In this document: one piece after another, positions 32,621-49,311 of the stretch
How the letters are laid out: every line of letters begins with the position of its first letter
Position numbering within the stretch: position 1 is the stretch's first letter
NCBI GenBank assembly: GCA_016866215.1
Contig: VGNE01000002.1
Span: 1-64,000 of the forward strand
Direction of reading: 5' to 3'
DNA from: Chloroflexota bacterium
GTDB taxonomy: Bacteria; Chloroflexota; Anaerolineae; Anaerolineales; Villigracilaceae
DNA: 64,000 nucleotides
The notes under the pieces: model-generated
The model's database searches: none
Seen by the model: the letters and a program-made list of their open reading frames with translations, nothing else
Told to the model about the DNA's origin: nothing
Position numbers and translations under genes: made by a program

Positions 32621-33234
32621 AATGTCACCTTGCGATGATGCACACGTAAATGTTCCGCTGAAATAATCGCATATACCTTTCCCACGGTATCATCCAGATG
32701 AAAATCCTGATTGACGATCACATAATCGAAGGCTTCAATCCGCGATAACTCCTTGCGCGCCGTGGCAATCCGCAGGGATAAAGAGTCAGCCGTTTCGGTC
32801 TTGCGCTCGCGCAAACGGTGTTCCAACTCATCTTCATTTTCACAGGTAATAAAGATCAACAAAGCCTCGGGGGCAAGTTTACGAACACTTTCCGCGCCTT
32901 GCACATCGAGGCGCATGACTACATCCTTGCCGCTTGCAAGCGCCTCCCGCACCTGCGCCATCGGAATGCCTTTGTAATCGCCGTACACCATTGCATATTC
33001 GATCAATTCATTCTCTTCGATCATGCGCGCAAATTCAGCCTTCGAAACAAACCAGTAATCCTTGCCGTCGATTTCGTTCTCACGTTTTTCACGTGTGGTG
33101 GCGGTCACAACAAAGTGAAATGGGAATCCGCGATCCATCATACGCTGGACGATTGAATCTTTTCCAACACCGGATGGGCCGGATATAACGATTAACAACG
33201 GTTGGGATTTGCGGAGTTCGAATGTTTTGGACAT
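32617..33234 (-). CDS. gmk: guanylate kinase
   Basis: LIVISGPSGVGKDSIVQRM; TTREKRENEIDGKDYWFVSKAEF. Confidence 0.95.
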   Translation of the reverse strand: MSKTFELRKSQPLLIVISGPSGVGKDSIVQRMMDRGFPFHFVVTATTREKRENEIDGKDYWFVSKAEFARMIEENELIEYAMVYGDYKGIPMAQVREALASGKDVVMRLDVQGAESVRKLAPEALLIFITCENEDELEHRLRERKTETADSLSLRIATARKELSRIEAFDYVIVNQDFHLDDTVGKVYAIISAEHLRVHHRKVTL

Positions 33235-33335
33235 TCATCTATTTTACCAAAAAGGAACGGCTGAGTTCTACTTCCGATTTGCATCACGGTATATGTTACT
33301 TTCCGATAGGCAAAAAAGCCTATCGGAGGAGCAAC

Positions 33336-34534
33336 ATGATGAGCCTGAAAAGCAAGCGCGAGTTGTTGGAAGTTGTGCGACCACGATACCTGAAAGCGAG
33401 CAAGGTTGAAAAGCAAAAGATGCTGGACGAGTTTACGTCTGCGACTGGCTATCATCGCAAACATGCGATCCGTGTGCTAAAAAACCAAGTTCAAGTTCAA
33501 AACCACCTTAAAGGGAAAACCAAAACCTACCAAACCATCTATCGTGGCGAAGTGGTGCGGGCGCTTGAGCAGATCTGGGAGATCTACGGACACCTCTGTT
33601 CCAAACGTTTGCAACCATTCTTACCAGAAGCCATTAAAGCGCTGGAGCGTTGTCAGGAAATCCAACTTTCCAAAGACACAAAAGAACTGCTCTCCCTGGC
33701 ACCGCCCGCCAGGGCAGGTGTGAAAATCAGTTCAGCCAGTATAGATCGCTGCTTGTGTCCTGTTCGAATCAAGACGCGGCACGGCTTGAGCACCACCAAA
33801 CCTGGCAGCCTGCTTAAAAAGTCAATTCCAGTACGCACCTTTACCGAATGGAGCGAAGAACAACCTGGCTTTATGGAAATTGACCTTGTCGCACACTGCG
33901 GAGATAGCACAGCAGGGCAATTTTTGAACACCTTGACCTGTACCGACGTGTGTACAGGTTGGGCCGATATAACGGGGCTGCCACGTCGTTCGCAAGAAGC
34001 AGTTTCTGAAGCCATACACCTCATGCGCCAAAGACTGCCCTTTCCTTTGCTCGGCATTGATTCGGACAATGGCAGTGAATTCATCAATGATTTGTTGTAC
34101 CGCTACTGCCTGGATGAGAAGATCACTTTTACCCGTTCTCGTCCATACAAGAAAAACGATCAGGCGCATGTCGAGCAAAAGAATTGGTCCGTCATACGGC
34201 ATACCGTTGGTTATGACCGCTGGGAAACAGAGCAGGAACTTGCTCTCCTTGAAAGTATTTATGACGATTTACGGCTCTACATCAATTTCTTTCAACCGTC
34301 TTTCAAATTGATGGCTAAAGCCTGTACTGAGCCTGTCGAAGTGAACGCATTGGCAACAAGACCATCAAACGGTATGATACAGCCAGGACCCCTTACCAGC
34401 GTGTACTCGAACGCAAAGATATTTCTTTGGAGGCCAAAGCACGGCTCATGAACTTGTATATCCAACTTAATCCTGCTGATCTTCGCCGCCGGATTGATCA
34501 GAAAACTGCCCAACTTTGGAAAATTTCTCGGTAA
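33336..34534 (+). pseudogene. IS transposase (integrase core), frameshifted near C-terminus
   Basis: FMEIDLVAHCG...GIDSDNGSEFIN...KKNDQAHVEQKNW; frame +1 after 34345 restores RIGNKTIKRYDTARTPYQRVLERKDIS...LWKISR*. Confidence 0.85.
34320..34345. repeat. short dispersed repeat GCCTGTACTGAGCCTGTCGAAGTG inserted in transposase
   Basis: Matches interrupted copy at 48540-48588 (reverse orientation). Confidence 0.8.
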
Positions 34535-34651: not shown

Positions 34652-35566
34652 CTATTCCAAGTAGTCACACCAACCCTCATACTTCTTTATCTTGCCGCGA
34701 ATCGCATCATGATACACATTCTGGATCTCGCGCGTTATCCTGCCAGATTTTCCATCGCCGATCTTACGGAAATCAATTTCACTCAAGCCGATGCACTCAG
34801 CGGCAGTACCGCACACAAAGACTTCGTCCGCGATGTAGAGCTGGTCGCGTGAAATCGGCTGTTCCAAAATCCTGTATCCCAAATCCTGCGCAATCGTATG
34901 AATGGAATGACGTGTAATCCCTTCCAATACCGGCGCAGTGGAGGGCGTGATAATTTTGCCATGACGCACGACAAAAAGATTCTCGCCCGTGCATTCCGCA
35001 ATATATCCCTGCGGATCAAGCATGATTGCTTCTTCAAATCCCAAACGCTGCGACTCGGTCTTGGCAAGAATACTGTTGGCATAATTACCCGATATCTTGG
35101 CTTTGGTCATCATCACGTTCGGGTGATGGCGTGTGAAAGATGAAATATTCGCGCGAATGCCTTTTTCCAACGCTTCATCGCCAAGATAATTGTTCCACTC
35201 CCACACGGCAATCGCGAGGCTGGGCTTGCCACTGTCCACATTCAAATTCCAGCCGCCACCATCCAGATACATTAACGGGCGAATATAGCAATCCTTAAAC
35301 CCGTTGACTCGCACGGTTTCCCTGATCGCCTCACTGACCTGATCCACTGTCCACGGAAATTCGCGGAAGCCCAACACTCGCGCCGAGTCAAGCAGACGTT
35401 CGATGTGTTCCTTCAAGCGAAAGACCGCAGGTCCCTTGTCTGTGTTGTATGCGCGAATGCCTTCGAACACCGCCGCGCCGTAATGCAGCGCGGGCGTCAG
35501 CATATGAATGGTGGCTTTCTCGAACGGTACCATTTCGCCGTTCATCCAGATGAATTTCGATTCCAT
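34652..35566 (-). CDS. ilvE: branched-chain amino acid aminotransferase
   Basis: FIWMNGEMVPFEKATIHMLTPALHYGAAVFEGIRAY; YIAECTGENLFVV. Confidence 0.95.
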   Translation of the reverse strand: MESKFIWMNGEMVPFEKATIHMLTPALHYGAAVFEGIRAYNTDKGPAVFRLKEHIERLLDSARVLGFREFPWTVDQVSEAIRETVRVNGFKDCYIRPLMYLDGGGWNLNVDSGKPSLAIAVWEWNNYLGDEALEKGIRANISSFTRHHPNVMMTKAKISGNYANSILAKTESQRLGFEEAIMLDPQGYIAECTGENLFVVRHGKIITPSTAPVLEGITRHSIHTIAQDLGYRILEQPISRDQLYIADEVFVCGTAAECIGLSEIDFRKIGDGKSGRITREIQNVYHDAIRGKIKKYEGWCDYLE

Positions 35567-35594
35567 GCCCATGATAATTTCTCCTTTTTAATTT

Positions 35595-35646: not shown

Positions 35647-36705
35647 TTAGATTCTTTTGATAATTTCATCCGCCATCTGGCGGGTCGTTAACTTGCCACC
35701 GATGTCTGTAGTGCGTGCACCAGCGGTAATTGTTTGTTCAACAGCCTTTTCAATCACGACGGCTTCCGCTTCAAGTTTCAACGAATGGCGAAGCAACATT
35801 GCCGTTGAAAGGATCGTACCAATTGGATTTGCGATTCCCTTGCCTGCAATATCTGGCGCTGACCCGTGGATCGGTTCAAACAACCCGACAGTTGATTCGC
35901 CCAAACTGGCAGAGGGCAGCATCCCCATTGACCCTGCCAAGATCGAGGCCTCGTCCGTGAGAATATCGCCGAACATATTCTCCGTGACGACTACATCCAT
36001 CCAGGCGGGATCAGTGATCAGCCGCATGGATGTAGTATCCACGAGCATGTGCTCGAGTTCCACATCTTTATTTTCCGCGCCAACTTCGGTTGCGATCTGA
36101 CGCCACAAACGAGATGACTCTAAAACATTGGCTTTATCCACCGAAGTCACTTTTTTCCTGCGGCCTTTCGCCAGCTTGAACGCAAGTTCCATCACGCGCT
36201 TAATTTCGTAATCATAATATTCAAGGGTATCCACAGCGCGCTCACGGCCATCTTTGATGTCGCGCCCCTTGGGCCAGCCGAAGTATAGTCCGCCAGTAAG
36301 TTCGCGCACGACGAGAATATCCACGCCTTGCAATTTCTCAGGCTTGAGCGGTGACCACTCCATCAGCGCAGGATGTACTTTGACAGGGCGTAAATTTGCG
36401 AATACGCCGAGACCTTTTCGCAAGGCGAGCAGTCCACGCTCGGGGCGGTCTTTCGCGGCAGGGTCATCCCATTTGGGTCCGCCCACCGCGCCAAGCAAAA
36501 CCGCATCCGCAGACTGGCAATCGGCGAGGGTTTCATCGGTCAACGATGAGTTGTATTTATCAATCGAACAACCGCCCATCAGGCGTTCTGTGAAATTGAA
36601 TGTGTGATTATATTTGCTGGCGATGAAGTCCAGCACGCGCACGGCTTCAGCGACCACTTCGGGTCCAATGCCGTCGCCGGGGAGGAGGGTTATTTTGAAT
36701 GTCAT
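35647..36705 (-). CDS. leuB: 3-isopropylmalate dehydrogenase
   Basis: [44 protein letters not shown]. Confidence 0.96.
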
Positions 36706-36789: not shown

Positions 36790-38346
36790 TCAATGCGCCA
36801 CCATCAGCCCATATTCCATTGAATCGGCCAACGCGCGCCAGGAGGCTTCGATGATATTTGTGCTTGCGCCGACAGTGCTCCAGCGGCCTGTGCTGTTGCG
36901 CGTGTCGATCAATACGCGGGTGATGGCTTCGGTACCATGGTCGGAATCGAGGATGCGGACTTTGTAATCGGATAGATAGAATTTAGCAATCTGCGGGTAA
37001 TAACCGGCCAAAGCCTTTCGCAATGCGTTATCCAGCGCATTGACGGGACCATTGCCCTCGGCGGCAGTGTGAAGCACTTCGCCTTGCACGCGGACTTTGA
37101 CCATCGCTTCAGCGAAGATACCGCGCATGTCACGGTGCTCGACGTTGACAAAAAAATCAATCAGTTCAAACGGAGGTTTATAGCCGTATTCCTGTCGCTT
37201 CAACATCATGGCCACGGATGCTTCGGCAGCTTCGAAGGAGAAACCGCGCGATTCAAGTTCCTTGATGTCATTGAGCACGCCAACGACTTCTTCACCTTCC
37301 ACTTCCACGCCGTGTTCTTCGGCTTTGCTTAATAAATTACCGCGACCTGAAAGATCAGAGACAACCACGCGCATTTTATTGCCGATCTTTTCCGGCTCGA
37401 TGTGTTGATACGATTGCGGCGAACGTCTCATCGCGGCGACGTGCACGCCGCCTTTATGCGCGAATGCAGATTTACCAACAAACGGCAAATGTTCATCGGG
37501 CGTGAGGTTGGCTACCTCCGCCACGAAATGCGAGAGTTCATATAAATGTTCCAGCTTTCCTGCGGGCAAACATTGATAGCCCATTTTGAGTTCAAGATCA
37601 GCCATGATGGAAATTAAGTTGGCATTGCCGCAGCGTTCACCCACGCCATTGATCGTGCCTTGCACTTGAATTGCGCCCTCGCGAATCGCCGTCAACGAGT
37701 TGACCACGGCACACTCGCCGTCGTTATGGGTGTGGATCCCGAATGGGGTTTTTATGACCAGTTTGAGGTTGCGAATGATGCGTTCCACTTCCCAGGGCAA
37801 TGTCCCGCCGTTGGTATCGCATAAAATGACTGTTTCCGCGCCGCCGCGAATCGCCGCGCGTAAAGTTTCGAGCGCGTAGGATGAATCCGCTTTGTAGCCG
37901 TCGAAGAAATGTTCGGCGTCATAGATGACACGCTTATTGTTTGATTTGAGATAAGCGACAGACTGCTCGATGATGCGAAGGTTATCTTCAGGCGTTGTTT
38001 GTAAAACTTCCTTAACGTGCAACGTCCACGTTTTTCCAAAGATGGTGCAGACAGGCGTGTTGGAATCAAGCAGGGCTTTGATGTTGGCGTCATCTTCGGG
38101 TCCGCCTTTGACACGACATGTTGAACCAAACGCAGCAATCAGCGCATTCTTCCACTGCATATCGCGGGCACGTTCGAAAAACTCAACATCCTTTGGATTT
38201 GAGCCAGGCCAGCCGCCTTCGATGAGGGCTACGCCGATGTCATCGAGTTTTTGCGCGATGCGGATTTTGTCATTGCTCGAAAGCGTAAAGCCTTCGGATT
38301 GAGTCCCATCGCGCAGGGTGGTGTCGTAGATTTGGATTTGGGTCAT
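36790..38346 (-). CDS. cimA: (R)-citramalate synthase
   Basis: MTQIQIYDTTLRDGTQSEGFTLSSNDKIRIAQKLDDIGV.LIEGGWPGSNPKD; HMGL-like plus LeuA allosteric domain. Confidence 0.93.
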   Translation of the reverse strand: MTQIQIYDTTLRDGTQSEGFTLSSNDKIRIAQKLDDIGVALIEGGWPGSNPKDVEFFERARDMQWKNALIAAFGSTCRVKGGPEDDANIKALLDSNTPVCTIFGKTWTLHVKEVLQTTPEDNLRIIEQSVAYLKSNNKRVIYDAEHFFDGYKADSSYALETLRAAIRGGAETVILCDTNGGTLPWEVERIIRNLKLVIKTPFGIHTHNDGECAVVNSLTAIREGAIQVQGTINGVGERCGNANLISIMADLELKMGYQCLPAGKLEHLYELSHFVAEVANLTPDEHLPFVGKSAFAHKGGVHVAAMRRSPQSYQHIEPEKIGNKMRVVVSDLSGRGNLLSKAEEHGVEVEGEEVVGVLNDIKELESRGFSFEAAEASVAMMLKRQEYGYKPPFELIDFFVNVEHRDMRGIFAEAMVKVRVQGEVLHTAAEGNGPVNALDNALRKALAGYYPQIAKFYLSDYKVRILDSDHGTEAITRVLIDTRNSTGRWSTVGASTNIIEASWRALADSMEYGLMVAH

Positions 38347-38406: not shown

Positions 38407-38991
38407 CTACACATTGGATGCCTCAAACTCTGCAATCTGTTTCTCGAAACCCAAGATGTAGCCGAGTTCGTCCACGCCATTTAGTAAACACGTTTTGTTA
38501 AATGGATCAATCGGGAAAGTGACGGAACCTCCAGGGTAGGATAATGTTTGGGTCGCAAGGTCAACTGTCAGTTCGGCGCGAGGCGCTTCTTCCACAAGGT
38601 CAAAAAGCATTTTGTGAGTCGCGTCATCCACAATGATCGGGATGAGTCCATTCTTCAAAGAGTTGTTGCGGAAGATGTCTGCGAAGGATGTGGAAATGAC
38701 GGCGCGGAAGCCGTAACTGGTGAGCGCCCACGGGGCATGTTCGCGGCTCGAACCGCACCCGAAGTTGTCTCCTGCTAAAAGAATTTGACAGCCCTTTGAC
38801 TCGGGCTTATTGATGATGAAATCTGTTTTGATGGATTTGTCATCGTTATAGCGCCAGTTGAAAAAGAGCGCGTCGGCAAGATTGTTCTTATCTGTGACTT
38901 TCAAGAACTGCGCGGGGATGATCTGATCCGTGTCAATGTCGTTGACGGGCAGAGGCATGACGCGGGAGGTGAGGGTGGTGAAATTTGCCAT
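38407..38991 (-). CDS. leuD: 3-isopropylmalate dehydratase small subunit
   Basis: DNFGCGSSREHAPWALTSYGFRAVIS. Confidence 0.95.
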   Translation of the reverse strand: MANFTTLTSRVMPLPVNDIDTDQIIPAQFLKVTDKNNLADALFFNWRYNDDKSIKTDFIINKPESKGCQILLAGDNFGCGSSREHAPWALTSYGFRAVISTSFADIFRNNSLKNGLIPIIVDDATHKMLFDLVEEAPRAELTVDLATQTLSYPGGSVTFPIDPFNKTCLLNGVDELGYILGFEKQIAEFEASNV

Positions 38992-39173: not shown

Positions 39174-40574
39174 TTAGACAACAGTACGCGGGTCCGTGAC
39201 GACTCCATTGATCGCTGTTGCCGCCGCAGTGACGGGGCTGGCTAAAAACGTGCGTCCGCCTTTGCCTTGCCTTCCTTCAAAATTGCGATTGCTGGTTGAG
39301 ACAGCATATTGACCTGGAGTTAATTGATCGGGATTCATCGCGATACACATGCTGCACCCTGCTTCGCGCCATTCACCGCCTGCTTCTTTGAAAATTTTAT
39401 CCAAGCCTTCCTGCTCGGCTTGCTTTTTAACATCTTGAGAACCAGGCACCACCATGAGACGTAAGCTATCCGCAACTTTGCGTCCCTTCAGCATTGCAGC
39501 GGCAAGACGTAAATCAGAGATACGTGAGTTGGTGCAACTGCCGATGAAAACCACATCCACTTTTTTGCCAAGCAGGGATTGACCAGGCTGTAAGCCCATG
39601 TAAGCCAATGCTTTTTCGAAGGCGGCTTTTTGTGATGGTTCAGTAAATGATTCAGTGGTGGGGACTCGATCTGTGATCTTCATGCCCATGCCAGGATTTG
39701 TGCCGTAGGTGATCATCGGTTCAAGTTCAGAAGCGTTGAGCATAATGGACTTGTCGTACGTCGCGCCTTCATCACTTGGCAATGTTTTCCAATACGCAAC
39801 GGCTTTGTCCCAGTCTGCGCCTTGTGGGGCGAACTCGCGTCCCTTGAGATATTCAAAGGTCACTTCATCGGGCGCGATCATGCCTGCGCGCGCGCCGCCT
39901 TCAATGGACATGTTGCAGATGGTCATGCGCTGTTCCATGGTCAAGCCGCGGATGGCTTCACCTGTGAACTCAAAGACGTGACCTGTTCCGCCGCCCACGC
40001 CGATTCTGGCAATGAGCGCGAGGATGATGTCTTTAGCTGAAACGCCATTTGCAAGTATGCCAATGACTCGAACTTCGTATGTCTTGGCTTTCCTTTGCAG
40101 CAAGCATTGAGTCGCAAGCACATGCTCCACTTCGGATGTGCCGATACCGAAAGCCAATGCGCCAAACGCGCCATGCGTAGCGGTGTGACTATCGCCGCAG
40201 ACGATGGTCATGCCTGGCTGGGTGCGTCCGAGTTCGGGGCCAATCACGTGGACAATGCCGCGGTGGGGACTGGTCATGCCATGCAAGGTGATCCCGAATT
40301 CAGCGGCGTTGGTTTCCATTTGCTTGATCTGCGCGGCGGCCATTGCGTCTGCAATGGGAACATCTATCGGCGTGGTTGGAATCGAATGATCCATCGTGGC
40401 GAGAGTTTTATCGGGGCGGCGGACTTTTAATCCGCGCTGACGCAGGCCCGTGAAAGCTTGCGGTGAGGTGACTTCGTGCACGAGGTGCAAGTCAATGTAG
40501 AGGACAGCTGGGGATTCAGGTTGTTCTGCGACAACGTGTAAGTCCCAGATTTTTTGGAAGAGAGTTTTGGGCAT
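39174..40574 (-). CDS. leuC: 3-isopropylmalate dehydratase large subunit
   Basis: [45 protein letters not shown]. Confidence 0.96.
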
Positions 40575-41001: not shown

Positions 41002-42642
41002 TTATCCAAGCATCACTCCGAAATCGTTCTGGACTTTTTCAGTCCCTTCGGTTTGCGCGATGATTAATTTGTTGACGGCATTGATATAAGCCTTGGCGCT
41101 GGCGACAATGATGTCCATATCTGCGCCGTGACCGCCGTAAACGCGCGAGTATTCAACTTCGCTTTGCGCGTCCATGGTTGATTTTCCGTTATCGCTTTGA
41201 ATGCGGACAGTGACTTCACCGAGCGCGTCAATGCCCGATGTGATGGCGTGGATGTTGAATTCAAGCAAGGTGCATGGAACGTTGATGATCGAATCAATCG
41301 CCTTGTACGTTGCATCCACCGGACCTGTGCCGATCGCGGCGACGGTGTGAATGATTCCATCGGGTCCGCGCAAACGGACAGTGGCTGTGGGCATGCCCAT
41401 CGTGCCGCATGAAACTTGCATACCGCTCAACAAATACACATCGCGCGGACGATAAAACTCATCGGCAATGAGGGCTTCGAGATCAAGGTCGGTGACGGTC
41501 TTCTTGCGGTCAGCGAGCTCCTTGAAACGCGCGAAGGCTTTATCGAGTTCAACTTCATCGAGCGAGTGACCCATCTCAGCGAGACGCGAACGCAGCGCAT
41601 GGCGGCCCGAATGTTTACCCAACACAAGTTTGGATTGATTAACGCCGACATCTTCGGGGCGCATGATCTCATACGTGGTCTGGTGCTTCAACATTCCATC
41701 CTGATGAATGCCCGCTTCATGCGCGAAAGCATTTGAACCCACGATGGCTTTATTCGGCTGGACAATTATGCCCGTGTAATTGCTGACTATCTTGCTAATG
41801 CGCGAAATTTGGGTCGTCTCAATTCCCGTTTCAAGATTGAAAACCGGCTTGCGAGTCTTCAATGTCATCACAACTTCTTCGAGCGATGTATTGCCCGCGC
41901 GTTCGCCGATTCCATTAACCGTCACTTCAGCCTGACGTGCGCCCGCTTGAATGCCCGCCAATGTATTCGCAGTTGCGAGTCCAAGATCGTCATGGCAATG
42001 CACAGAGATCGTGATGCCATCGTGCATGCCTGGTGTGTTCCTGATAATGCCGTCAATCAATTTATAAAATTCATCGGGCGTAGTGTAACCCACCGTATCG
42101 GGAATATTCAACGTGGTTGCGCCAGCCTTGATGGCTTCGCCCAAAACCACATACAAAAATTCCGGGTCAGAGCGCCCCGCATCTTCGGGCGAGAACTCAA
42201 CATCCGCGCACAAAGTCCGCGCGTATGCAACCATTTCCGCAACACGCTGCACAACATCTTCGGGATCCATTTTCAATTTGTGCTTCATGTGAATTTCAGA
42301 AGTCGCAAGGAAAGTATGGATGCGCGGTTTCTGCGCCTCTTTGACGGCTTCCCACGCCTTATCAATATCGGATTTATTCGCGCGCGCCAATCCCGTGATG
42401 ATGGGGACTCGCATTTCTTTATCCGCGCCGACAGTTGGCTGCCCAACTTCGACAGCAATTCGTCTGACGGCTTCCAAATCGTCTGGCGAGGCGGCAGGGA
42501 ATCCCGCTTCGATAATATCCACGCCGAGGCGCGCGAGATGATGCGCCAATTCCAACTTCTCAGCAGAAGTCATCGTCGCGCCAGGGGACTGTTCCCCGTC
42601 GCGTAGGGTGGTGTCGAATATTTTTACATAATTATTTGGCAT
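41002..42642 (-). CDS. leuA: 2-isopropylmalate synthase
   Basis: [44 protein letters not shown]. Confidence 0.95.
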
Positions 42643-42867
42643 AGAATTCTCCGTTCGGAGTAGACAGGTACACATGTAAACACGTAGGCAGGTGATACTT
42701 GCTTCGGCAAAAGAATCTTGCGCCCTGTTACCCGCACAATGATGGTATCGCGCGTATGCGGGTTGTCTTGCGCCCTGTTGCCCGCACGGGGATGAATCCC
42801 CGTGCTATTTTTACGAAGCCCCGTAAACGGGACTCGAACCTGTTTACCTGTCTACTTGTTTCCTTGT

Positions 42868-43926
42868 CTACTTTTCTTTCTTCCAATTCTCAGGTCGCAA
42901 CGATCTAACTGCCGCGCCTGCGCGCCACATTTCAGAATCACGAATTGCAGCAAGTTCTACTTCGAGTTTCGCACGATAATCAGGCTGGCTGTTGGCTTCA
43001 AGAGTAATACGGGCTTCGTTGCCAGTGACCACGGATTCATAGAGCGCGTCAAACACGGGAGCCACCGCATCGCGGAAGCGTGGATGCCAATCCAATGCGC
43101 CGCGTTGAGCAGTGGTGGAGCAGTTGGCGTACATGAAGTCCATGCCGTTTTCACCGACGAGGCGAATCAAGGATTGCGTGAGTTCTTCGACAGTTTCGTT
43201 GAAGGCTTCGGATGGAGAATGTCCATGCTTGCGGAGTACGTTGTATTGCGCTTCCATCACACCAGACAATGCACCGATGAGAACGCCGCGTTCACCTGTC
43301 AGGTCGCTGTACACTTCGTTCTTGAAAGTTGTCGGGAACAAGTAGCCAGCGCCGATGGCAATACCCAAAGCAATCGCGCGTTCATTTGCGCGCCCCGTGT
43401 GATCCTGGTGGACGGTGTAACTGGCGTTGATTCCGCTGCCCGCCAAAAAGTTGCGGCGGACACTTGTGCCAGAACCCTTCGGCGCGACGAGAGCCACATC
43501 CACGTGCGGAGGAGGAATCACACCCGTATCATCTTTGAATGTGACAGAGAATCCATGCGAGAAATACAGCATGTCACCTTCGTTCAAACATTCCACGAGC
43601 TTCGACCACTGCGAGCGTTGACCTGCGTCAGATAATAAATATTGAACGACAGTTCCCTTTTCTGCAGCTTCTTCAACATTGAATAATGTCTTGCCTGGAA
43701 CCCAGCCGTCTGCAACAGCCTTATCCCAATTTTTCGTACCTTCGCGCTGACCGACGATCACGTTGATCCCGTTGTCGCGCATATTCATCGCCTGCGCAGG
43801 ACCCTGCACGCCGTAGCCAAGCACTGCCACAACTTCATTCTTCAAAACTTCACGCGCCTTCTCAAGCGGAAATTCGTCGCGTGTTACCACATCTTCAACT
43901 GTGCCGCCAAAATTGATCTTTGCCAT
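42868..43926 (-). CDS. ilvC: ketol-acid reductoisomerase
   Basis: VAVLGYGVQGPAQAMNMRDNGINVIVGQREG; full KARI layout. Confidence 0.94.
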   Translation of the reverse strand: MAKINFGGTVEDVVTRDEFPLEKAREVLKNEVVAVLGYGVQGPAQAMNMRDNGINVIVGQREGTKNWDKAVADGWVPGKTLFNVEEAAEKGTVVQYLLSDAGQRSQWSKLVECLNEGDMLYFSHGFSVTFKDDTGVIPPPHVDVALVAPKGSGTSVRRNFLAGSGINASYTVHQDHTGRANERAIALGIAIGAGYLFPTTFKNEVYSDLTGERGVLIGALSGVMEAQYNVLRKHGHSPSEAFNETVEELTQSLIRLVGENGMDFMYANCSTTAQRGALDWHPRFRDAVAPVFDALYESVVTGNEARITLEANSQPDYRAKLEVELAAIRDSEMWRAGAAVRSLRPENWKKEK

Positions 43927-44052: not shown

Positions 44053-44613
44053 TCACGGCGCCATCTCTGCCAACTCTTCCAAATCCTCATACCGATTGCC
44101 CGTTACCCCAGGCACACGGCGGACTCCATCATTCACACCGCGAGTCATCGCCACCTGACCGGTACGCACCATTTCCACAATCCCCAGTGGACGTAACAAC
44201 TCGATCATGCCTTCGATCTTATCCTCCGTGCCAGTGATCTCGACGATAACCGAATCAGCCGCCACATCCACGATATGGGCGCGGAATATTTCAGCGAGAC
44301 CATTAACTTCAGCGCGTTTTTCGGGTCCGACCTTTATTTTGATCAGAGCCAGGTCACGGGTCACCGAAGGTTGACGCGTCACGTCCTGCACGTCAATCAC
44401 GTTGACCAGTTTATATAGATTCGCTTCGATCTTGTGCGCGTCCATATCGCCGTTGGGACAATCCACCACCACGGTCATGCGCGAAACTTCAGGGTCTTCC
44501 GTCCGCCCCACTGCGAGCGACTCAATATTGAAATTGCGGCGGCGAAACAGAGAAGCGACGCGGTTCAATACACCAGGTCTATTTTCTACTAATGCAATGA
44601 AAGTGTAGTTCAT
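44053..44613 (-). CDS. ilvN: acetolactate synthase small subunit
   Basis: MNYTFIALVENRPGVLNRVASLFRRRNFNIESLAVG ACT domain. Confidence 0.95.
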   Translation of the reverse strand: MNYTFIALVENRPGVLNRVASLFRRRNFNIESLAVGRTEDPEVSRMTVVVDCPNGDMDAHKIEANLYKLVNVIDVQDVTRQPSVTRDLALIKIKVGPEKRAEVNGLAEIFRAHIVDVAADSVIVEITGTEDKIEGMIELLRPLGIVEMVRTGQVAMTRGVNDGVRRVPGVTGNRYEDLEELAEMAP

Positions 44614-44628
44614 TCTTACTCCTTGTAT

Positions 44629-44715
44629 CGTCATTGCGAGGGCGCTAGCCCGAAGCAATCCCCAACACGTTGAAGGAGATTGCTTCGTCGGGAAGAGCAT
44701 CCTCCTCGCAACGAC
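44629..44715. repeat. palindromic repeat (GTCATTGCGAGG...GAAGCAATC / GATTGCTTC...CCTCGCAACGAC)
   Basis: Two facing arms in the ilvB-ilvN spacer. Confidence 0.85.
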
Positions 44716-44719
44716 ATGA

Positions 44720-46402
44720 TTATCTTGCAGGCCTCTGTAACATCTGATCCAAGGCCGCGCCTGCGGGAACCATCGGGTAGACGGCTTCCTCCTGCTCCAC
44801 GCGGAATTCGATCACGGTGGGACCTTGAATACTGCGCGCCCAGGCAATCGCTTCATCCACTTCTTCGCGCTTGGTCACGCGCCTTGCTGGGACACCGTGC
44901 GCTTCGGCGAGTTTCACAAAATCTGGCGAGAGCATGTTCACGGCAGAGTAACGCTTCTCGAAGAAGAACTCCTGCCACTGACGCACCATGCCGAGAAAAC
45001 TGTTATTCATGATCGCCACTTTTACATTCGCGCCTTCCTGCACGGCAGTCGTCAACTCTGCGGCAGTCATCTGGAAACCGCCGTCGCCCGCCACAGCCCA
45101 TACTTCCTGAGTCTTGTCTGCGAACCACGCGCCAATCGCGGCGGGCAAACCAAAGCCCATCGTCCCCGCGCCGCCCGAAGTCAGCCAGCGATTCGGTTTA
45201 TCCAGTTGATAATATTGCGCTGTCCACATCTGGTGTTGACCGACATCCGTCGTCACAATCGCGCCGCCGCCTGTGGCTTTCCAAATATCGGCGATGAGAT
45301 GAGGCACATACAACTTGCCATCATCTTCCCAATTCATAATGCTGCGCGTATCGGCTTCCGATTTCCATTCGTTGATCTGCTTCTTCCATTCTTCGTGATC
45401 GTATTCATCCACCATTGGAATCAGGTCACTCAACACCGTTTTCAAATCACCCACGAGCGGAACATCCACAGACACGTTTTTATGCACTTCCGACGGATCA
45501 ATTTCAATATGGATTTTCTTCGCGTGCGGCGCGTAGGTTTTCAACGTGCCAGTCACGCGGTCATCGAAGCGCATTCCAAAAGCAAGGATCAAATCCGAAT
45601 TTTGAATCGCCATGTTGGTGTGGACTTCACCGTGCATACCCATCATCCCCAAACTTAATTCATGCGAAGCGGGGAACGCGCCGAGTCCGAGCAAGGTGCT
45701 TGCCACGGGCGTTTGAGTCTTCACCGCGAATTGCATGAGCGCTTCCTCGGCTTTGGACATCAACACGCCATGTCCGCACAAAATGATCGGACGCTGCGCT
45801 TTCTCGATCAACTTGACCGCGCGCTCCAGTGAATCCTTCGGCGCATGATCCACAGGTTGATAACCTGGTAGTTTCACAGTTTCAGGATAAATAAATTCAG
45901 TCTGTTCCACCTGCGCGTTTTTGCAAATATCAATCAACACAGGACCAGGTCTGCCGCTGCGCGCAATGGTTAATGCCTCGCGCACAACTTCGGCAATTTC
46001 ATCGGCGCGCGTCACAAGGTAATTATGTTTTGTGATCGGCAATGTAATACCCGTCACATCCACTTCCTGAAACGCATCGCCGCCGATCAGGTGCGCGGCG
46101 ACCTGTCCCGTAACAAAAACTACCGGCACAGAATCCATCATCGCCGTGGCAATGCCCGTCACCAAATTCGTCGCGCCAGGTCCCGATGTCCCCATCGCCA
46201 TCCCCACCTTGCCCGAAGCGCGCGCGTACCCATCCGCCATGTGCGCCCCGCCCTGCTCATGCCGCACCAACACATGATGGATGGGATAACTCAACATCGC
46301 ATCATAGATCGGCATATTCGCCCCGCCAGGGTAGCCGAAGACCACCTCCACGCCTTCGCGCACCACACACTCCCACATAATTTCCGCGCCAGTTTTTTTC
46401 AT
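44720..46402 (-). CDS. ilvB: acetolactate synthase large subunit
   Basis: GAEIMWECVVREGVEVVFGYPGGANMPIYDAM; GDGGFQMTAAELTTAVQEGANVKVAIMNN TPP motif. Confidence 0.96.
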   Translation of the reverse strand: MKKTGAEIMWECVVREGVEVVFGYPGGANMPIYDAMLSYPIHHVLVRHEQGGAHMADGYARASGKVGMAMGTSGPGATNLVTGIATAMMDSVPVVFVTGQVAAHLIGGDAFQEVDVTGITLPITKHNYLVTRADEIAEVVREALTIARSGRPGPVLIDICKNAQVEQTEFIYPETVKLPGYQPVDHAPKDSLERAVKLIEKAQRPIILCGHGVLMSKAEEALMQFAVKTQTPVASTLLGLGAFPASHELSLGMMGMHGEVHTNMAIQNSDLILAFGMRFDDRVTGTLKTYAPHAKKIHIEIDPSEVHKNVSVDVPLVGDLKTVLSDLIPMVDEYDHEEWKKQINEWKSEADTRSIMNWEDDGKLYVPHLIADIWKATGGGAIVTTDVGQHQMWTAQYYQLDKPNRWLTSGGAGTMGFGLPAAIGAWFADKTQEVWAVAGDGGFQMTAAELTTAVQEGANVKVAIMNNSFLGMVRQWQEFFFEKRYSAVNMLSPDFVKLAEAHGVPARRVTKREEVDEAIAWARSIQGPTVIEFRVEQEEAVYPMVPAGAALDQMLQRPAR

Positions 46403-46432: not shown

Positions 46433-48112
46433 TCATCCGTTCATATCCGTTGTCAACACTGCGCCCGTATCCGCGCTCGTCACAAAATACGAATAACGTT
46501 TCAACCATTTGGACGTGGTTGTGGATTTGAACAGAGGCAGCGCACTCAGCCGACTTTGAATCTCCGCGCCACTCAACTTAACGTTGAGGCTGCGTGCCAC
46601 CAAATCAATTTGGACTACATCCCCAGCCTTGATCGCCCCAATCGGACCACCCGCAGCAGCTTCCGGCGACACATGCCCAATGCACGCCCCGCGAGTCCCG
46701 CCGCTAAAACGTCCATCGGTGATGAGCGCGACTTTATCGCCGAGTCCCTGCCCCATAATTGCGGCAGTCGGCGACAGCATCTCCTGCATCCCAGGTCCGC
46801 CCTTGGGGCCTTCATAGCGCACAACAACACAATCGCCCGCTTTCACTTTTCCAGCGAGAATTCCAGCCATCGCTTCATCTTGTGATTCAAAGATAACCGC
46901 AGGACCTTCAAACTTCATCATGGACTCACTCACGCCGCCCGCTTTCACAACCGATCCTTTGGGAGCGAGATTGCCAAACAAAATAGATAAGCCGCCGCGC
47001 TTGGAATAAGCATTCTCATATTTATGAATAACTTCTTCATCTTTGATATCGCAGCCTTGAATCGATTCCCCCAAGGTCTTGCCAGTTACAGTTATGCGGT
47101 CAAAATGCAACATGCCAGTTCCCCGTTGGACTTCGTTCAAGATGGCAGGGATTCCGCCCGCGCGATGGACATCTTCCATGTGCCATTTGCCCGCTGGACT
47201 CACTTTGCAGATATGAGGCACTTTATCGGCGACTGAATTGATTCGGCTCAGCGGATAGTCCACGTTCGCTTCGTTTGCCAACGCCAAAGTGTGAAGCACC
47301 GTATTCGATGAACCGCCCATCGCCATGTCCAGTGCGAACGCGTCGTCTATCGCATCGGCGGTGACAATGTCACGCGGCTTGATATCGCGTTCGATCAAGG
47401 TCATCACTTGCGCGGCGGCTTGCCTTGCCAAATCTTCGCGCTCAGGAGTCTTCGCTAAGGCAGAGCCGTTATAAGGTAATGCCAGACCGAGCACTTCCAT
47501 CAAACAGTTCATCGAGTTGGCGGTGAACATACCAGAGCATGATCCGCACGAAGGACAGGCAAATTTTTCAAGAATAGATAATCGCTTTTCATCAATTTTC
47601 CCCGCTGAAAATGCGCCGACGCCTTCAAAGACGGAGATCAAGTCAATCGTCTCGCCATCGGGAGTCATGCCCGCTTTCATTGCTCCACCTGAAACAAAAA
47701 TGGTCGGCACGTTGACGCGCATCGCAGCCAGCAACATGCCAGGCACGATCTTGTCGCAGTTGGGGATGCAGACCATGGCGTCAAATCTATGAGCTTCGAT
47801 CATGGTCTCGACGCAGTCAGCAATCAGTTCACGAGAGGGAAGCGAATACTTCATCCCCGCATGACCCATCGCGATACCATCATCCACGCCGATGGTGTTG
47901 AATTCAAACGGCACACCACCCGCCGCGCGGACAGCGTCCTTTACCAGTTTGCCAAACTCCTGCAAATGCACATGCCCGGGGACAACATCCACATAAGAAT
48001 TAACAATGGCGACAAATGGCTTGTTGAAATCATCGTCCTGCAAACCTGTGGCGCGTAACAATGCACGGTGCGGCGCTTTTTCATAACCCTTTTTTACTGT
48101 GTCTGAACGCAT
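46433..48112 (-). CDS. ilvD: dihydroxy-acid dehydratase
   Basis: [67 protein letters not shown]. Confidence 0.95.
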
Positions 48113-48216
48113 GTTGCTCCTTTGATGGCTGACCATAGACCATGGACGGTAGACGATGGATGGTGGTTGGGTTACGGTCGGTGGTCTATCGTCCACCGTC
48201 AGTTCTTAATTGATAT

Positions 48217-48248
48217 AAAAAAAGAGCCGCCCGTGGTTAGGGCGGCTC
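48217..48248 (-). terminator. rho-independent (attenuator) terminator upstream of ilvD
   Basis: Minus strand GAGCCGCCC-TAACCAC-GGGCGGCTC-TTTTTTT (9-bp stem, 7 T). Confidence 0.9.
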
Positions 48249-48270
48249 TTCGTACTACTTACGCAGTGAT

Positions 48271-48375
48271 TTACTTTACTCTCACCGTTGCCATCCTAAC
48301 CGAAAATTGATCCTTAATAATAAGGACCGCAAGGACGACGACAATAAGGGAGAGGCTGAACAAAGATATATTCAT
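48271..48375 (-). CDS. ilv operon leader peptide (predicted)
   Basis: MNISLFSLSLIVVVLAVLIIKDQFSVRMATVRVK*; 16 of 34 residues Ile/Leu/Val with an 11/13 run; lies between promoter and terminator. Confidence 0.82.
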   Translation of the reverse strand: MNISLFSLSLIVVVLAVLIIKDQFSVRMATVRVK

Positions 48376-48389
48376 GGGCTGTAGGTATT

Positions 48390-48424
48390 TCGCCCGATTA
48401 TAGGCAGAATTTGAAATAAGTCAA
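48390..48424 (-). promoter_or_regulatory. consensus sigma70-type promoter for the ilv-leu operon
   Basis: Minus strand TTGACT-16 bp-TATAAT, predicted start ~15 nt before the leader ATG. Confidence 0.8.
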
Positions 48425-48717: not shown

Positions 48718-49311
48718 TCAATACTTCAGATATATATACTTCTTCCTCGGATTGATCCCCACCCTCCCTTCGAAATAGCTCTTGATCGCTTTTATGTCTG
48801 CATCCATATTTTCTGTTGGGTGAAATACCTGTCCAACATGCACGGTTTTCTTTGCGCCATCCACAACCGCCATCACTACGGGAATCCCTGCTTTTTTGGC
48901 GATGTGATAAAAGCCCATCTTCCATTCACTGACATAATGCCGCGTGCCTTCGGGGGTGATGGTCAAAATGAATTTGTCTGATTTTTCGCAGGCATCCACC
49001 ATTTGATCAACGAGTCCTTGCGACTTTTTACGGTCCACGGGAATGCCGCCGCACCAATAGAAGAACCAGCCGATCGGGCTGCGGAACAACTCCGCTTTGC
49101 CCATAAAGCCGACGTTGGCCCGCAGGTGGAAGATGATGCCGAGGAACAGTACGAAATCCCAGTTGGAGGTGTGCGGCGCGCCGATCAATATATATTTTGG
49201 CAGGTCGGGCAATTTTCCCTCCACACGCCAACCGACCATGCGCAGAATCAAATTTGCCATCACGCGTAGAAATATGCTGAGAATGGGAGTGTTGAAAATA
49301 GTGGTCTTCAA
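48718..49311 (-). CDS. lysophospholipid acyltransferase-family protein
   Basis: YILIGAPHTSNWDFVLFLGIIFHLRANVGFMGKAELFRSPIGWFFYWCGGIPVDRK. Confidence 0.9.
   Translation of the reverse strand: MKTTIFNTPILSIFLRVMANLILRMVGWRVEGKLPDLPKYILIGAPHTSNWDFVLFLGIIFHLRANVGFMGKAELFRSPIGWFFYWCGGIPVDRKKSQGLVDQMVDACEKSDKFILTITPEGTRHYVSEWKMGFYHIAKKAGIPVVMAVVDGAKKTVHVGQVFHPTENMDADIKAIKSYFEGRVGINPRKKYIYLKY

Follow-up and report, generated by a model that had tools for sequence, protein, structure and literature searches.

Most documented cases of leader-peptide attenuation come from Proteobacteria, Actinobacteria and some Firmicutes. In the enterobacterial ilvGMEDA and ilvBN operons a leader ORF rich in codons for branched-chain amino acids (BCAA) and a terminator with a U tract precede the first ilv gene, and the leader transcript forms mutually exclusive protector, antiterminator and terminator hairpins. 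These proteobacterial attenuators were treated by Vitreschak et al. 2004, going by the citation in PMC10272879. The element described here, which is located upstream of ilvD in a 64,000-nucleotide stretch of DNA (the window), has the same BCAA-rich ORF, terminator and set of alternative hairpins, of which the 1:2 protector is predicted. Unlike the enterobacterial systems it precedes a ten-gene ilv and leu operon headed by ilvD, its leader ORF lies near the 5' end of the transcript without a Shine-Dalgarno sequence, an additional covarying hairpin is found inside the control codons, and no sequence family link is detectable (no Rfam match).

The actinobacterial ilvBNC leaders and the Corynebacterium ilvB-II motif are alike in that an I/L/V-rich leader ORF, a terminator and an antiterminator are found before ilvB (PMC1262725, PMC10272879), but they consist of a 15-17-codon uORF and a two-stem motif, whereas the leader ORFs here span ~30-40 codons in another architecture and another phylum. 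The title of reference 16 in PMC10272879 reports that the Corynebacterium glutamicum leader is formed with no ribosome binding site, a further resemblance to the present leader. The ilvB-OMG motif, for which attenuation is proposed, likewise combines a BCAA-rich uORF with ilvB in several phyla (PMC10272879); it has only 41 representatives and encodes Thr in addition to BCAA, and no Rfam 15 family matches the element here. Leader-peptide attenuation of BCAA synthesis genes also occurs in the ilv operon of Staphylococcus aureus (PMC5794164), a member of another phylum in which a leucine-rich peptide is combined with CodY, whereas all three BCAA are mixed in the peptide described here. Salmonella mgtCBR has two short leader ORFs in series (PMC3641672), as some relatives of the window do, but its genes do not serve the synthesis of an amino acid; the window has a single attenuator. 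A literature search found no report of such an element from Chloroflexota, although the survey of Lopatovskaya et al. 2010 (cited in PMC4833913 and PMC10272879) may contain predictions, and PMC4833913 counted leader genes in this phylum and judged the data too noisy. The kind of mechanism is known from other bacteria; the phylum and the gene arrangement are new.

Anatomy of the leader and its operon

The promoter of the leader (Table 1) has a 16-nt spacer, matches the consensus at 11 of 12 positions and is the sole strong promoter-like site between positions 47500 and 49500. An earlier note on this DNA had identified both hexamers and, about 15 nt past the promoter, the ATG of a 34-codon ORF on the minus strand. 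Promoter and ORF are both present (ATG at 48375, stop at 48271), and the distance of ~15 nt applies to the expected start site, as the ATG lies 21 nt after the -10 box. The ORF translates as MNISLFSLSLIVVVLAVLIIKDQFSVRMATVRVK followed by a stop codon, and the count of 11 branched-chain residues (I/L/V) among residues 8-20 is correct. The promoter block from CTTGAC to GCCTATAATCGGGCGAAAT shows almost no variation across the family. The segment TATAATCGGGCGAAAT (minus strand 48386-48402 and relatives) is also almost invariant in the family and includes a GC-rich CGGGCG discriminator. Discriminators of this type are linked elsewhere to stringent control. In five relatives (L008, L009, L017, L026 and L027) a palindrome, CCGAATCGGAAA, recurs 5' of the -35 box, and AATGTAATCGTT is also found 5' of the promoter in several of these loci; the palindrome, which is absent from the window, is possibly a regulator site.

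The terminator hairpin consists of GAAGAGCCGCCC-TAACCAC-GGGCGGCTCTTT and U7 and ends ~105 nt before ilvD. The earlier note had described it as a 9-bp GC hairpin with seven T; the seven T are found at 48223-48217, while the stem has 12 bp of which 8 are G-C. The note had also pointed out that GGTTAGG (48301-48295) in the leader ORF is complementary to CCTAACC (48241-48235) within the terminator hairpin. Both sequences are present and complementary, and because TAACCAC forms the terminator loop, CCTAACC spans the loop and the top of the stem. The antiterminator is larger than first noted, with 11 of 12 positions paired and one mismatch (GGUUAGG-A-UGGC/GCCG-C-CCUAACC), and its arms correspond to leader nt 75-86 and nt 130-141. 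It excludes the terminator, since the 11-pair 2:3 helix shares region 3.

The ten ilv and leu genes that follow on the same strand each score above the NCBIfam cutoff and make up a complete BCAA pathway. As the earlier note had it, the element stands just upstream of ilvD, which heads this ten-gene operon behind the terminator, and the ilvD start is ATG 48112 (AAAGGAG-N4-ATG) and not the mechanical GTG 48196. The gap between terminator and ilvD (48125-48216 in the window; L003-L054) contains differing hairpin-forming repeats in different relatives, as if it tolerated insertions. Directly behind ilvE, on the opposite strand, lies an integrase-core (rve) transposase-like gene (33222-34451, plus strand).

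Table 1. Positions of the leader elements and of the ilv and leu genes in the window
Feature	Position	Strand	Remark
-35 hexamer TTGACT	48419..48424	-	CTTGAC kept in nearly all family relatives
-10 hexamer TATAAT, then CGGGCGAAAT	48397..48402	-	GCCTATAATCGGGCGAAAT close to invariant in family
Leader-peptide ORF, 34 codons and TAA	48271..48375	-	No Shine-Dalgarno sequence; expected 5' UTR ~15 nt
Control codons 8-20 (LSLIVVVLAVLII)	48316..48354	-	Conserved as I/L/V (see text)
Region 1, 5' arm of protector hairpin 1:2	48329..48348	-	MFE structure; without covariation support
Nested leader hairpin GGTCCTTATTATTAAGGATC	48309..48328	-	12 double-sided compensatory cells in the family alignment, 0/500 shuffles
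Region 2 GGTTAGGATGGC, antiterminator 5' arm, also 3' side of hairpin 1:2	48290..48301	-	Covariation
Region 3 GCCGCCCTAACC, antiterminator 3' arm, overlaps terminator 5' arm and loop	48235..48246	-	Covariation
Intrinsic terminator (regions 3:4), 12-bp stem, 7-nt loop, U7	48217..48251	-	Sequence and covariation
ilvD, first structural gene	46433..48112	-	TIGR00110 above cutoff; Shine-Dalgarno AAAGGAG 48123-48117
ilvB	44720..46402	-	TIGR00118
ilvH/ilvN, small subunit	44053..44700	-	TIGR00119; true start probably internal
ilvC	42868..43926	-	TIGR00465
leuA	41002..42675	-	TIGR00973
leuC	39174..40574	-	TIGR00170
leuD	38407..38991	-	TIGR00171
cimA (citramalate synthase)	36790..38346	-	TIGR00977
leuB	35647..36705	-	TIGR00169
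ilvE	34652..35572	-	TIGR01122

Conservation, covariation and control codons

The folding of the 175-nt leader has a z of -5.5, and none of 200 shuffles was as low. Of the strong terminators in the 64 kb window, just three lie behind a short ATG ORF, and the best stretch of 13 residues contains 11 I/L/V in the leader ORF compared to 5 in the next best of the three; 12 order-2 Markov windows contained no case of a terminator behind a short ATG ORF. The duplex between regions 2 and 3 of the window is by itself only moderate against shuffled leaders (z = -2.2), and the case therefore rests on comparative data. RNAalifold on the family alignment predicts the terminator only, which is expected because the 2:3 and 3:4 helices are mutually exclusive.

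All 29 other loci from the first ilvD search (ilvD 91-95% identical) have kept the promoter, the ORF, the antiterminator and the terminator, while on either side, 5' of the promoter and between terminator and ilvD, the sequence varies freely among them. The element is also retained before ilvD in other genera of the family (ilvD 73-90% identical) and in most of the examined members of other families in the order. Of 110 upstream regions put through a simple scan, 14 yielded no attenuator, and some of these are misses of the scanner (e.g. L062) or contig ends. In four relatives (L071, L106, L107 and L111) the same attenuator precedes a different ilvD paralogue (~42% identical), and therefore the switch stayed and the gene was exchanged.

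Covariation was assessed in a family alignment of 60 sequences (A1) and an order alignment of 58 sequences (A2). In A1 the antiterminator has 97% of its cells paired and 12 double-sided compensatory cells, a number reached in 0 of 500 shuffles, and control partners slid along the alignment gave at most 5 compensatory cells and at most 51% pairing. In A2 there are 53 such cells (0/500 shuffles; slid controls at most 17). The terminator has 23 double-sided compensatory cells in A1 and 62 in A2 (0/500 shuffles for the latter), while the long 1:2 stem shows no covariation beyond shuffles in A1 although this helix is part of the MFE structure. The arms occur as GGUUAGG/CCUAACC, GGUUGGG/CCCAACC, GGUUGGA/UCCGACC, UUUGGGCAG/CUGCCCAAA and GUUUGAGGCGGC/GCCGCCUCAAAC with region 4 following, and the changes are three-way because region 3 pairs with both regions 2 and 4. 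Changes in the terminator loop that turn an antiterminator U-A into a U-G pair are tolerated in L012 and L027. The earlier note had proposed that upstream regions of related ilvD genes be compared, and what it anticipated there, a BCAA-rich short ORF with a terminator and covarying GGTTAGG/CCTAACC arms, is what the relatives have; the mutually exclusive antiterminator that it considered plausible is borne out by compensatory changes in both 2:3 and 3:4.

In 65 aligned leaders of the family, I/L/V make up 89-100% of the residues at each control position, one A/S/V position and the S excepted. I, L and V replace one another at single positions (e.g. 28 L, 25 V and 10 I), and F, M, W and G hardly occur. 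Read from the alignment, this restricted exchange is what a BCAA-tRNA sensor would need, unlike a generic membrane helix. The conserved control codons CTT, ATT and GTC are not obviously rare.

The geometry of the leader was modelled by folding it up to region 3 while the footprint of a ribosome was masked codon by codon, which describes equilibrium and not kinetics. For the window, the probability of the 2:3 helix is 0.95-0.99 with the A site at codons 6-20 and 0.00 at codons 21-33, and it is 0.01 for ribosome-free RNA, in which region 2 is held upstream. The switch point stays within codons 18-21 over 16 choices of footprint, and the BCAA run ends at codon 20. Across 103 leaders, 69% of the codons permissive for the antiterminator are I/L/V compared to 33% elsewhere. 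In the window sequence 2:3 can also form while a ribosome sits on the stop codon (0.57-0.99 depending on the footprint), so that termination in the fed state would depend on timely release or refolding. The free RNA of two relatives already favours 2:3, and for L088 the model fails.

Proposed mechanism and competing explanations

The element is best read as a classical ribosome-mediated transcription attenuator through which the availability of charged Ile-, Leu- and Val-tRNA controls ilvDBHC-leuACD-cimA-leuB-ilvE, a reading to which we assign a probability of about 0.93. It is proposed that transcription starts at the sigma-70-type promoter and that a ribosome joins the mRNA very near its 5' end. 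When BCAA-tRNA is short, the ribosome would wait among codons 8-20 and cover region 1, which would leave region 2 (GGUUAGGAUGGC) available to pair with region 3 (GCCGCCCUAACC) as soon as the latter is transcribed; with 2:3 in place the terminator could not form and the operon would be read. When BCAA are plentiful or the leader is untranslated, region 2 would either be traversed or be sequestered by the 1:2 hairpin, which would leave region 3 to pair with region 4, and transcription would end at the U tract before ilvD. What the sequences themselves show is the anatomy, its conservation, the compensatory changes in 2:3 and 3:4, selection of I, L or V at the control codons and a position before BCAA genes; translation of the leader, stalling of the ribosome, termination with its BCAA response, and what hairpin 1:2 does are inferred. 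The nested hairpin GGTCCTTATTATTAAGGATC is possibly an RNA polymerase pause hairpin. Regulation by attenuation is very probably real here, and the attenuator interpretation of the earlier note is supported.

The ORF might instead encode a functional small membrane protein, with the hairpin an ordinary terminator and ilvD expressed by read-through or from another promoter. The peptide, hydrophobic with a C-terminus that is basic, is conserved across the family. This explanation is nevertheless very improbable, as the control positions swap I, L and V and hardly ever take up F, M, W or G, residues suited to a membrane helix, the last part of the ORF is under constraint as an antiterminator arm whose changes are matched in region 3, and the second unit of L096 reads the same nucleotides in another frame. 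Moreover the ORF nearly always adjoins BCAA genes, the peptide is without a Pfam match, and there is no other strong promoter before ilvD.

A ligand-binding RNA (T-box, ppGpp or other riboswitch) that controls the terminator while the ORF is incidental is less probable again. T-boxes and riboswitches also use terminator/antiterminator pairs and the leader is highly structured, but searches of the window and of ten relatives brought no Rfam family above its threshold, the T-box covariance model gave no match at E<=10, and no Rfam match was obtained at gathering; the best sub-threshold matches are unrelated sRNAs or matches to the terminator. With a 5' UTR of ~15 nt the transcript before the switch is nearly all coding, and its conserved codons distinguish it from such RNAs. 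Least credible of all is that the hairpin terminates the upstream acyltransferase gene (48718-49311), which is on the same strand as the leader and lies 467 nt upstream of the hairpin, and that the rest is coincidence. The conserved promoter and ORF lie between the two. What precedes the element varies from relative to relative, yet its place before ilvD or ilvB is kept, and changes in the antiterminator are accompanied by covarying changes in the terminator arm. This candidate is contradicted by the conservation pattern.

Distribution and tandem attenuators

An exact search for GGTTRGGAYGGC-N34-64-GCCGCCCYAACC returned 52 matches in 84,980 species genomes, of which 49 are in Chloroflexota. 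All 49 Chloroflexota loci have the terminator, 47 have the leader ORF (L192 and L202 end at contig or stretch edges) and all but two have a recognisable ilvD directly downstream; the remaining three matches (Sphingomonas, Opitutia and Rhodoferax) have neither ORF nor terminator. These 49 loci were picked by the RNA motif and not by the ORF, and therefore lend the ORF independent support. The named relatives bearing the motif are mostly Anaerolineales MAGs, one of them Candidatus Villigracilaceae, in agreement with the probable Chloroflexota host named by the earlier note.

A covariance model of the attenuator finds a single convincing copy in its own genome (140 bits, the next match scoring 25.5) and none besides. 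Within the class, 154 of 297 genomes have a match at E <= 0.001; in the phylum 36 of 350 genomes do so at 1e-4, and five of these are outside the class. Of 60 inspected class and phylum loci, mostly outside the order, 57 precede ilvB, ilvD, ilvE, leuC or cimA (tblastn) and a 58th (L260) precedes the gene for an acetolactate-synthase-like TPP enzyme. Of the two left, L237 is a short contig end and L256 stands before a rubrerythrin gene. Sensing of charged tRNA through ribosome stalling very probably controls BCAA synthesis in Chloroflexota too, and the conserved, covarying and widespread element can serve directly as a model for annotating many MAGs.

Two complete leader ORF/terminator units are arranged in series before ilvD in L039:289-625, L047:299-625, L048:315-647 and L057:333-676, and likewise in L061 and L063. 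The second ORF of these tandem loci mostly has a Shine-Dalgarno-like AGGAA or similar, while the first has none. The second unit of L051 has decayed, and the covariance model also picks up closely spaced pairs in two other genomes of the class (G473 and G370). The window contains one unit only. It stands at even odds that the elements of Anaerolineae and a few other Chloroflexota are one ancient, homologous family of leader attenuators that serves as the main BCAA RNA switch, reaches transport and a few unexpected genes, and occurs in one clade as two complete units in series, the first leader close to the 5' end and lacking a Shine-Dalgarno sequence, the second provided with one. If this is true, two attenuators in series would constitute a two-stage and steeper starvation switch. 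Single, tandem and decayed copies provide a natural comparative set for attenuator evolution.

Besides the rubrerythrin locus, matches to the attenuator model that precede genes outside the core pathway are found at L137, before a gene for a periplasmic amino-acid-binding-type protein, and at L141, before one for a SPASM radical-SAM protein; the gene at L145 seems to be the same as that at L141.
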